Shown: one piece after another, positions 311 through 61,185 of the stretch
How positions within the stretch are numbered: the stretch's first letter is position 1
How the letters are laid out: the number at the start of each line of letters is the position of its first letter
NCBI GenBank assembly: GCA_910575705.1
Contig: CAJTFG010000001.1
Coordinates: 683,217 to 747,216, forward strand
Source of the DNA: Erysipelotrichales bacterium
GTDB lineage: Bacteria > Bacillota_I > Bacilli_A > Erysipelotrichales > Erysipelotrichaceae
Reading direction: 5' to 3'
DNA: 64,000 nucleotides
Translations under genes and position numbers: made by a program
Notes under the pieces: generated by a model
Seen by the model: only the letters and a program-made list of their open reading frames with translations
Database searches by the model: none
What the model was told of the DNA's origin: nothing

Positions 311-637
311 TATGATAAGAGTGAAAGGAGTAAACATTATTTGTCGTTTCATGAGCACGATTTCTGCTTATCAAAACAAATTGGCAGGAGGAGCAACAGC
401 AGCTTACTCTAACGCAAACGCTTCCTTTTATTATCGCGGGCTTGGCTTAAGAGACTATGAACATGGTTGGAGCTCATCGACCGGAAATCATACCGCAGCA
501 CGTCAACGCCCTCTGTACTATCTCTTCAACGGTGCAGTCAATCATTGGCCTGCAAACTGGACAGATGACGGCAGAGGATCTTATTATCAGCGTCCGGCTT
601 TGTTTGATGATCGAAGATCTGTATAGGTATTCAGATC
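311..637 (+). repeat. STIS-QRPAL element, copy 1
   Basis: First of four related intergenic elements. A TATGAT -10-like box lies at 311-316, the 5' box AGCACGATTTC at 354-364 and the 3' box CAGCGTCCGGCTTTG at 588-602. The two boxes are in one open frame encoding STIS, 74 intervening residues, then QRPAL and a short tail to a TAG at 624-626. Only this copy has an ATG (351-353) directly before STIS, but no ribosome-binding site sits at the right distance; AAAGGAG at about 324-330 is too far upstream. A weak hairpin (GATCTG 616-621 / CAGATC 632-637) starts 13 nt after the 3' box. An internal degenerate QRPL occurs about 26 residues before QRPAL. Function unknown. Confidence 0.7.
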
Positions 638-20946: not shown

Positions 20947-21039
20947 GGTATCACTCCTGTCCATATAGATTATGCTCCATCTGTTCTGTTTAATACAATA
21001 TGCGGTTGAAGTTCATGCAGTTTATTTCGAATAAGAATG

Positions 21040-21067
21040 TTGAAAATATAGAAGAAGAGGATATAAT
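21040..21067 (+). promoter_or_regulatory. Promoter of candidate antitoxin RNA, copy 1
   Basis: TTGAAA at 21040-21045 and a perfect TATAAT at 21062-21067 with 16-bp spacing. The same promoter is conserved in the second copy at 60831-60858. Confidence 0.75.
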
Positions 21068-21073
21068 ATAAGT

Positions 21074-21130
21074 ATCTGAGTGAACAGGTGGAGACATCTG
21101 AAAAGGGGCAAGTGGTAGCTTGTCCCTTTT
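21074..21130 (+). ncRNA. Candidate antitoxin RNA, copy 1
   Basis: Predicted transcript of about 57 nt from the promoter at 21040-21067 to a 12-bp hairpin AAAAGGGGCAAG / CTTGTCCCTTTT (21101-21112, 21119-21130). In copy 2 the single G-T pair of this stem becomes G-C, a change that preserves pairing. The hairpin also works on the minus strand, so this RNA and the toxin mRNA would overlap at their 3' ends, as in the txpA/RatA and bsrG/SR4 systems of B. subtilis. Confidence 0.6.
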
Positions 21131-21195
21131 AAAATGGGAGGCTCTGAGTGAAAGACTCAAGAGTAAGACGGTTGGGCTCTCATAGATCGGTTATA

Positions 21196-21258
21196 TTACC
21201 GCCTTAATAAAGCGGCGGTAATCACAAGGATCAGATAGAGTATAATCAAGTACTCCAT
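21196..21258 (-). CDS. Tiny hydrophobic peptide, candidate type I toxin, copy 1
   Basis: A 20-residue peptide, MEYLIILYLILVITAALLRR, almost wholly a single membrane helix with a basic end. AAGGAAGG lies 5-12 bp before its ATG. Copy 2 at 60987-61049 differs in four codons, three of them synonymous, which supports selection on the peptide. Small hydrophobic peptides with convergent antisense RNAs are typical of type I toxin-antitoxin systems. No known family was recognised (it is not an obvious Fst, TxpA or BsrG). Confidence 0.65.
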   Translation of the reverse strand: MEYLIILYLILVITAALLRR

Positions 21259-21293
21259 ATTGCCTTCCTTTCTGAGTGCCTTTCAGGTCTCAT
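21246..21293 (-). CDS. 15-residue leader ORF overlapping the toxin start, copy 1
   Basis: MRPERHSERKAIWST begins at ATG 21293 behind a very strong GAGGAGGT site and ends with TGA at 21246-21248, 13 nt inside the toxin ORF in another frame. Its coding region contains the toxin's own ribosome site. This arrangement resembles coupled leader ORFs such as mok for hok: translation of the leader would control access to the toxin start. Copy 2 has the same ORF with one His-to-Arg change. Confidence 0.55.
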   Translation of the reverse strand: MRPERHSERKAIWST

Positions 21294-21421
21294 AAAGTTA
21301 CCTCCTCGATAATCTCTTACACATCGATCGTTGAATTTCCTAAAAATTTTTTGATTTTTTCAGGTGATAAAAATTTCGGGAAGGAGGATCCTTATCCGTC
21401 TTGAAGTGAAACTTTTCACAA

Positions 21422-29840: not shown

Positions 29841-29869
29841 TAAAATTACTCCCTCTGCTAGTTATATAG

Positions 29870-30179
29870 AAAGATAATGCTTTATTATCTTTAGCGTATG
29901 CAGGCAGAGCCGGACGCTGATAGTCGATCCATAAAGAACCGGTAATGGGAGAAAGCCGATACGAAAGATGTCCCGGAGGATGCAACCAGGCAACGGCATT
30001 GGCCTTTCCATTGTATAGCACAGGAGAAGCTGAATAAATGCCCCGTTTCACATCAAATGGAGAAAAACCAAATATCCTGTCATAGCGTTCTTCATTAGCC
30101 AGCTCAAACACGATACGATGCTGCGTTGAAATCGTGCTGGCATGACGGGTGTCACAGGTAACTGCTTTTTTCTATTTTA
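29870..30179 (-). repeat. STIS-QRPAL element, copy 2
   Basis: Read on the minus strand: TGTTAAAAT extended -10 (TAAAAT at 30174-30179), about 36 nt, AGCACGATTTC at 30128-30138, 69 codons, CAGCGTCCGGCTCTG at 29905-29919, a 12-nt spacer, then a 9-bp hairpin AAAGATAAT/ATTATCTTT (29870-29878 with 29884-29892). The frame from STIS through QRPAL stays open to a stop near 29836. No ATG, GTG or TTG lies in frame between the upstream in-frame TAG and STIS. The product segment is aromatic-rich and contains AVAWLHPP before QRPAL. Function unknown. Confidence 0.7.
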
Positions 30180-30224
30180 ACATATGCATAGTAAATTTTT
30201 CACGTGAAGATAAGGAGGGAATGT

Positions 30225-37468: not shown

Positions 37469-37492
37469 TAGTTCCTCTGTATAATATACGAT

Positions 37493-37780
37493 ATCATAAT
37501 ACATATTATGATGTTTTGACACGAACAGAGCCGGACGCTGCGATGTCGGATAGTTATCTTTATTCGTATAATTCATCCATGCATATCCATCATGCAGCAA
37601 GTTCCAGTAGCACGTAGGAAGTCCTTGCCATACAACAAAGGTAGACATAGGTACCCGTATATCGGTTTGATGACGAAAACTGCTGTCAAAACCGGTTGTT
37701 TTTTCGCTTCCATAGCTGGCTAACACATAGTGATATTGCGAAATCGTGCTGTTTAAAAAGTTCCTACCTCTTTTATTTTA
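37493..37780 (-). repeat. STIS-QRPAL element, copy 3
   Basis: Read on the minus strand: TGGTAAAAT extended -10 (TAAAAT at 37775-37780), about 24 nt, AGCACGATTTC at 37740-37750, 66 codons, CAGCGTCCGGCTCTG at 37526-37540, a 13-nt spacer, then hairpin ATCATAATA/TATTATGAT (37493-37501 with 37504-37512). The frame is open from an upstream TAA to 37325, which runs antisense into the small gene at 37280, so the true 3' limit is more likely the hairpin. No start codon lies in frame before STIS. Related residues: FVVWQGLP before QRPAL. Confidence 0.7.
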
Positions 37781-37806
37781 CCAAAGAAAGGGCTCTATAT
37801 TAATAA

Positions 37807-40429: not shown

Positions 40430-40449
40430 GATCCTCTGCATGCTATTTG

Positions 40450-40743
40450 AACCATGATACCCATCATAGTTATCCAATTTATACAGAGCCGGACGCTGTG
40501 AGACAATCCATCCTGAGTGATTGATATAATTTGCGGGAGTGTTATGCCAGGCTTGCGCAAGCGTATCATAAAAATGCCAGGGAATAGTATCGGTATCTGG
40601 AGAAGAAGACCAGCGGCGATTGATTTCCTTGCAAGTCATGGCGGGAACACGGGATGAATTTTCTGCTACGAGTATCTTATATGCAACAGAAATCGTGCTT
40701 TTGAAAGGACCGGATACCGATCTCTGCCTTCTTTTGTAGTATA
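40450..40743 (-). repeat. STIS-QRPAL element, copy 4
   Basis: Read on the minus strand: TGGTATACT extended -10 (TATACT at 40738-40743), about 38 nt containing AGAAGGCAG and a GATCGG/CCGGTC hairpin, AGCACGATTTC at 40689-40699, 63 codons, CAGCGTCCGGCTCTG at 40484-40498, a 12-nt spacer, and a 9-bp hairpin AACTATGAT/ATCATGGTT with GGGT loop (40450-40458 with 40463-40471). The frame is open throughout. The only in-frame ATG upstream overlaps the -10 box, so it cannot serve a transcript made from it. Related residues: AQAWHNTPANY before QRPAL. Confidence 0.7.
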
Positions 40744-40879
40744 CCATGATGAAACACGAGATAAAATACGCTATTATGCATCTTACTGATCGTATATATA
40801 CGGTTGGCAGGATGCTTTTTATTTGATATTGTTGTAATATAATATTATATGATATATAATATAATACAAAGAAGGTGGT

Positions 40880-60737: not shown

Positions 60738-60830
60738 AATTTCTATTATTTTCGTTTAAATATAATACGCAAGAATAGGAAATATTGTCTGTTTTATAGT
60801 ATTTTAAGCAGTTTGTTTCGAATAGGAATG

Positions 60831-60858
60831 TTGAAAATATAAAAGAAGAGGATATAAT
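60831..60858 (+). promoter_or_regulatory. Promoter of candidate antitoxin RNA, copy 2
   Basis: TTGAAA at 60831-60836 and TATAAT at 60853-60858, 16-bp spacing, as in copy 1. Confidence 0.75.
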
Positions 60859-60864
60859 ATAAGT

Positions 60865-60921
60865 ATCTGAGTGAACAGGTGGAGACATCTGAAAAGGGGC
60901 AAGTGCTAGCTTGCCCCTTTT
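60865..60921 (+). ncRNA. Candidate antitoxin RNA, copy 2
   Basis: About 57 nt ending in a perfect 12-bp stem AAAAGGGGCAAG / CTTGCCCCTTTT (60892-60903, 60910-60921). The stem is fully paired here, where copy 1 has a G-T pair; the RNA otherwise matches copy 1. Confidence 0.6.
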
Positions 60922-60986
60922 AAATTGGGAGGCTCTGAGTGAAAGGCTCAAGAGTAAGATGGTTGGGCTCTCATAGATCTATTATA

Positions 60987-61049
60987 TTACCCCCTTAATA
61001 AAGCAGCGGTAATAACGAGGATCAGATAGAGTATAATCAAGTACTCCAT
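60987..61049 (-). CDS. Tiny hydrophobic peptide, candidate type I toxin, copy 2
   Basis: MEYLIILYLILVITAALLRG, identical to copy 1 except for the last residue. The four codon differences are CTT/CTC, GTG/GTT, GCC/GCT and CGG/GGG. The ribosome site AAGGAAGG is unchanged. Loss of the last Arg reduces the basic tail from two residues to one, and may matter for membrane insertion or toxicity. Confidence 0.65.
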   Translation of the reverse strand: MEYLIILYLILVITAALLRG

Positions 61050-61084
61050 ATTGCCTTCCTTTCTGAGCGCCTTTCAGGTCTCAT
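61037..61084 (-). CDS. 15-residue leader ORF overlapping the toxin start, copy 2
   Basis: MRPERRSERKAIWST, from ATG 61084 behind GAGGAGGT to TGA at 61037-61039, inside the toxin ORF. Same geometry as copy 1. Confidence 0.55.
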   Translation of the reverse strand: MRPERRSERKAIWST

Positions 61085-61185
61085 AAAGTTACCTCCTCAA
61101 CAATCTCTTACACATAGATCACTGAAATTCCTAAAAGTTGTTTATAAATTTGTCATTGCTCGATTATAAACCAGCGGTGTTTGCA

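Follow-up and report, generated by a model that had tools for sequence, protein, structure and literature searches.

Silent-cassette antigenic variation is established for pilE/pilS of Neisseria and the MgPa repeats of Mycoplasma genitalium, which resemble vls of Borrelia in keeping silent partial genes whose variable interiors lie between conserved ends, and in expressing a surface protein from a single site. Integron cassettes with attC sites represent a different arrangement, in which coding units devoid of expression signals of their own are followed by a hairpin that is conserved in structure. Among diversity-generating retroelements (DGRs), that of BPP-1 has a template RNA with a folded spacer 3' of the template repeat (TR), which recruits bRT-Avd and acts in priming the cDNA (PMC12875486), and recipients that carry, and need, a hairpin after the IMH (PMC3240598). 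The system described here, from the genome of an Erysipelotrichales bacterium, shares the listed features of vls, pil and MgPa and, judged by its sequence, is very probably a silent-cassette system that carries a covarying sense-strand element.

The cassettes are bounded by two short boxes (Table 1). Four copies of the 3' box lie in the window, by which we mean the entire 64,000-nt stretch that was analysed, and 141 in the 1.85-Mb genome at up to two mismatches; a reversed-pattern control had no match in the genome. Across the genome about 140 cassettes follow the same layout of 5' box, open frame STIS...QRPAL, 3' box and a tail of two helices. Of 127 cassettes, 126 have a distance between the boxes that is divisible by three and 124 have a stop-free frame; an in-frame ATG lies upstream in 34 of the 127, and in most there is none. 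Each cassette contributes 55-93 variable residues, and the strongly varying interiors are interspersed with conserved ones (TIS, a G, W-SSP and QRPAL). Beyond the one surface gene discussed below, no cassette lies within a long gene. Differences between similar cassettes fall on third, first and second codon positions 93, 63 and 39 times, respectively, and the cassette-encoded protein is, on this sequence comparison, under constraint. A C-type lectin fold was considered for the cassette domain and set aside, the AlphaFold model being of low confidence and matches in PDB and Pfam being absent. None of the approximately 700 other genomes searched contained cassettes: searches of relatives with the boxes, the tail model, the RT and the surface domain returned background or isolated weak matches only, and arrays were missing from viral contigs, 61 of which contain the exact box, once each. 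The host is apparently the sole member of its genus among the genomes searched.

Table 1. Positions of cassette features in the window.
Feature	Position	Strand	Remarks
3' box CAGCGTCCGGCTCTG	40484..40498	minus	codes for QRPAL; 141 genomic copies
5' box AGCACGATTTC	40689..40699	minus	found 165-279 nt upstream of each 3' box genome-wide
Silent cassette STISVAYK...WIVSQRPAL	40484..40699	minus	72 codons, stop-free, without a start of its own
Inner hairpin of tail	40450..40471	minus	AACTATGAT GGGT ATCATGGTT; covariation over 120 copies
Complete tail	40433..40488	minus	outer helix CTCTG(TA)/(TA)CAGAG around the inner hairpin; ends in CAGAGG
Extended -10 promoter-like motif TGGTATACT	40738..40746	minus	GGCAG, the putative region of RNA start, follows after 9 nt
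Second silent cassette STISQYHY...TSQRPAL	37526..37750	minus	tail 37474-37530; -10-like motif 37775-37783
Third silent cassette STISTQHR...DYQRPAL	29905..30138	minus	tail 29852-29909, arms AAAGATAAT/ATTATCTTT
-10-like motif TGTTAAAAT of third cassette	30174-30182		
Fourth silent cassette STISAYQN...YYQRPAL	354..602	plus	box variant CTTTG; tail 598-655, compensating CAAAG

An earlier note on this DNA had described a hairpin 12-13 nt after the QRPAL box that kept its pairing and spacing while its sequence differed completely between copies. The hairpin is present. In the first cassette of Table 1 it begins 12 nt past the 3' box, and genome-wide the spacer measures 12 or 13 nt in 69 of 115 distinct tails, but 10-11, 14-22 or 28 nt in some others. 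Its loop has 4 nt in 100 and its stem 9 bp in 68 of these 115 tails. The sequences do differ completely among the copies in the window; across the genome, however, a degenerate consensus exists (AACTATGAT AAGY ATTATAGTT). What had been noted is moreover only the inner part of the element, since a second, outer helix had been overlooked, in which CTCTG, the last 5 nt of the 3' box, has CAGAG as its partner some 45 nt farther downstream.

The covariation that had been suspected is clearly present. In a MAFFT alignment of 120 tails, built with no selection for pairing and compared with 500 shuffles and with slid-arm controls, standard pairs occupy 92.4% of pair cells versus 83.8% in the shuffles, and both sides have changed in 198 cells versus 43.5. 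No shuffle out of the 500 equalled the real tails on any measure, and pairing falls to 27-54% once one arm is slid by 1-3 columns. The outer helix is compensated in variant copies: where the box ends in CTTTG, CTCTA or CTCAA its partner is mostly CAAAG, TAGAG or TTGAG, with 9, 3 and 2 compensated copies, respectively. Inner hairpin and outer helix thus covary beyond every control. Read on the sense (box) strand, the inner helix has 111 G·T cells versus 26 A·C mismatches; because every G·T appears as A·C when the complementary strand is read, this points to selection on a single strand, the sense strand, and the box strand is probably the one that folds, as RNA. A search of the window and the RT locus against Rfam returned no family except a tRNA. 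The idea of an unusual terminator, also raised in the note, was abandoned: the tails lack a T run, and within arrays only tens of nt separate a tail from the promoter-like motif that follows it.

Upstream of the 5' box, an extended -10 motif, mostly 9-10 nt ahead of GGTAGG, was found in 60 of 126 cassettes versus 3.4 expected, leaving about half of the cassettes without a promoter-like motif at the stringency applied. From its presence in the other half, each cassette is apparently transcribed from its own promoter, and the template RNAs would start near AAGGTAGG. Cassette heads (e.g. L019, L028, L029) also contain, between the promoter and the 5' box, a degenerate block of some 26 nt (GGRRTTC..TTA..ATGGTGA) that is repeated in tandem a variable number of times.

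A single long frame in the genome includes a cassette segment. It encodes a protein of 6,844 aa (G000:C3:197065-176531, minus strand) with a signal peptide and a C-terminal hydrophobic segment as anchor, and the segment is in frame and without the covarying tail. Its DNA is 100% identical to silent cassette L029-681 from 14 nt before the 5' box to 2 nt after the 3' box, where unrelated flanks begin. Most other recent copy pairs at different sites show the same pattern, with identity throughout the stretch bounded by the boxes and unrelated sequence on either side, and some cassettes are mosaics whose identity tracts end inside. The genome has many silent variants, one expression site, and silent and expressed copies that match, by which silent-cassette systems are recognised. 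In pairs whose box ends differ (CTCTG versus CTCAA) the CTCAA copies fit their own tails, and this agreement of box-end variants with their own tails implies that interiors move and tails stay. Just upstream of the giant gene, a 358-aa protein (L040:3682-4758, minus strand) resembles, by eye, an ECF sigma factor that includes a membrane segment and may regulate the surface gene. The N-terminal domain of the giant protein has a weak relative at L359 (G142:C19:17560-17721; 44% identity, E 5.5e-5) within an open frame of 1504 codons.

The note had also called for a search for a DGR reverse transcriptase (RT), and there is one. The only RVT_1 protein of the genome (C2:179012-180247) has the BPP-1 DGR RT as its best PDB match (8ub7, E 3.6e-43), falls within a clade formed by DGR RTs from the gut (support 0.98) and neighbours a bAvd protein that scores 46.5 bits with PF22296 (cut-off 40), though under the NCBIfam cut-off. 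The pair adjoins neither the cassettes nor the surface gene, and its link to the cassettes consists of co-occurrence in this one genome alone, the roughly 700 others being free of them. Ahead of avd (L052, about 2830-2960) stands a leader of about 95 nt, in which a TATAAT promoter is accompanied by a stem of 10 bp, TGTGTGAATC/GATTCACACA, and by a terminator-like hairpin; the leader has no second copy in the genome, and inspection by eye detected no pairing with the boxes.

Two properties that define canonical DGRs were looked for here. An adenine-biased repeat pair lies within reach at 58 of 83 related RT loci, and no such template/variable repeat pair was found in the 18 kb around this RT. 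Adenine-specific mutagenesis was not seen among 14 similar cassette pairs, in which transitions predominate and C/T is commonest (77 C/T, 55 A/G, 22 G/T, 19 A/T, 13 A/C, 9 C/G). Because both tests, a TR near the RT and adenine mutagenesis, came out negative, we do not classify the system as a canonical DGR. Handa et al. (NAR 2021) reportedly found adenine mutagenesis to be promoted by the bRT residues R74 and I181. Arg74 is retained in this RT, and the position of Ile181, in motif 4, is occupied by Gln. In the other 80 of 81 DGR RTs this residue is I, L or V, and among all 83 RTs compared only this one and two group II intron RTs have Gln. Extrapolating from the work on bRT, this Gln may raise the fidelity of the enzyme.

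The relatives closest by sequence, gut Firmicutes/Tenericutes loci (L116-L132, L146-L157), share with this system the RT family, the Avd partner and the clade. Shared, too, is a target segment that ends in (A/Q)RPAL, with the conserved box at the place of the IMH; the variable repeats (VRs) of close canonical DGRs end in ...GGARPAL where QRPAL stands here, and the 3' box occupies the IMH position of related DGR targets. A structured element after the template is a further likeness: in the sister clade (L148, L150, L157) a hairpin, CTTAATT/GATTAAG, follows 12 nt after the IMH of the template, and in L117-L132 alternative stems follow the template, with CAGAGAAA about 50 nt on. The tails here end in CAGAGGAAA or similar, a likeness that is suggestive only. 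A two-helix fold for the relatives' TR tails was rejected, as alternative folds exist and double changes do not; we therefore use no more than the hairpin position and the similarity of CAGAGAAA to CAGAGGAAA. Profile comparison did not match the cassette domain to DUF6273, the target in a related DGR, and the resemblance in W-SSP ... G ... RPAL is only a lead. A canonical-looking DGR RT from the same bacterial family (L204, G116; 41% identity) adjoins DUF6273 and TIR-DUF6273 proteins.

Altogether we favor a model, which we consider probable, in which a DGR was turned into a faithful cassette copier and the hairpin became part of the recognition or priming element of its template RNA. Co-occurrence, anatomy and phylogeny make it similarly probable that RT and Avd copy the cassettes. 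We envision that each silent cassette serves as the template RNA of the converted retroelement and would be transcribed, without translation, from its own promoter. RT-Avd would recognise the cassette RNA through its tail, that is, the inner hairpin and the outer helix begun inside the 3' box, and cDNA synthesis would start in or near the tail and run through the cassette up to the 5' box. Via both boxes, the faithful cDNA could then take the place of the surface gene's cassette or of a further silent one, with the outcome that the surface domain would be switched among stored variants and not randomly mutated. Taken as a whole, some 140 individually transcribed, untranslated template RNAs copied faithfully by a domesticated RT-Avd into one surface gene would constitute RNA-mediated antigenic variation, a picture that we judge to lie just on the likely side. 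Such a system would be unlike DGRs in having no adjacent TR, about 140 dispersed templates rather than one, no adenine mutagenesis, Gln for Ile181, and one giant chromosomal target. It would also have a recipient without a recognised hairpin: the expressed gene has no tail, whereas the BPP-1 recipient has and needs its hairpin (PMC3240598). The DGR lead of the earlier note was of the right sort, given the DGR-type RT and Avd of the genome and the box at the IMH position, but the element is probably not a VR-side hairpin: it follows silent donors, is absent from the single expressed copy and is selected on the sense strand; its position matches instead the hairpin after the TR in the sister-clade DGRs.

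The main rival, which we consider unlikely but take seriously, is RecA-type gene conversion like that at vls or pilin loci, relying on the short boxes at both ends and on homology within the cassettes, with RT-Avd as an unrelated DGR remnant. Silent cassettes with short conserved ends and one expression site suit the logic of vls and pil, and the mosaic cassettes could come from ordinary gene conversion too. However, the homology amounts to just 11 and 15 bp between unrelated flanks, and the model leaves unexplained why donors that are not translated would have a motif resembling a promoter and an element that covaries on the sense strand, why the 3' box lies where related DGR targets have their IMH, and why RT and Avd would be retained without a template. 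The RNA structure of the tail would then need another role, such as stabilising or ending cassette transcripts. Unlike vls, pil and MgPa, the donors here are apparently transcribed singly and have a covarying RNA element, and the system combines chromosome-wide dispersal and very short end homology with a DGR-type RT and Avd.

It is very improbable that the tail is instead an attC-like single-strand hairpin site for a tyrosine recombinase, as in integron-type site-specific recombination. Startless open frames in arrays with a structure-conserved hairpin at the end do bring integrons to mind, and the search for tyrosine recombinases urged by the note turned up three in the genome; two of them, though, are ordinary Xer-like enzymes by domains and by their housekeeping neighbourhoods. 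Here, unlike in integrons, a moving cassette leaves its hairpin behind, and no integrase was linked to that hairpin: interiors move between the boxes independently of tails that stay put, and the expressed copy has no tail. The ssDNA attachment site put forward in the note finds no support in view of the same movement of interiors.

We give little credence to a canonical mutagenic DGR with very many VRs, in which the hairpins would be VR-side recipient hairpins. An RT, Avd and an IMH-like box followed by a hairpin, such as BPP-1 recipients have (PMC3240598), would all be expected of it, but similar cassettes lack the adenine signature, no template repeat lies near the RT, only the one surface gene places a cassette inside a long gene, and Gln stands at the 181 position. 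An archive in which expressed-gene sequences are written out, in the reverse direction, to silent sites whose tails mark them as recipients has in its favor the hairpin as recipient mark in BPP-1 (PMC3240598) and the symmetry of silent-expressed identity, yet is scarcely credible, as it accounts neither for the promoter motif nor for the helix's bias to the sense strand, and requires another source of diversity.

No paper that joins silent-cassette switching with a DGR-type retroelement was found in the literature searched, outside of which lie preprints and most subscription journals. If the favored model is true, two textbook routes to protein diversity would be joined, and an enzyme family known for random mutagenesis would here work in cassette switching. 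Bacterial RNA-mediated antigenic variation would become testable, a natural DGR RT with the residue expected of a more faithful enzyme would be at hand, and the natural variation among 120 template tails would define what an RT-Avd complex may recognise. The window also contains a direct repeat of 300 bp, 94% identical, at 21012-21311 and 60803-61102, 39.8 kb apart.
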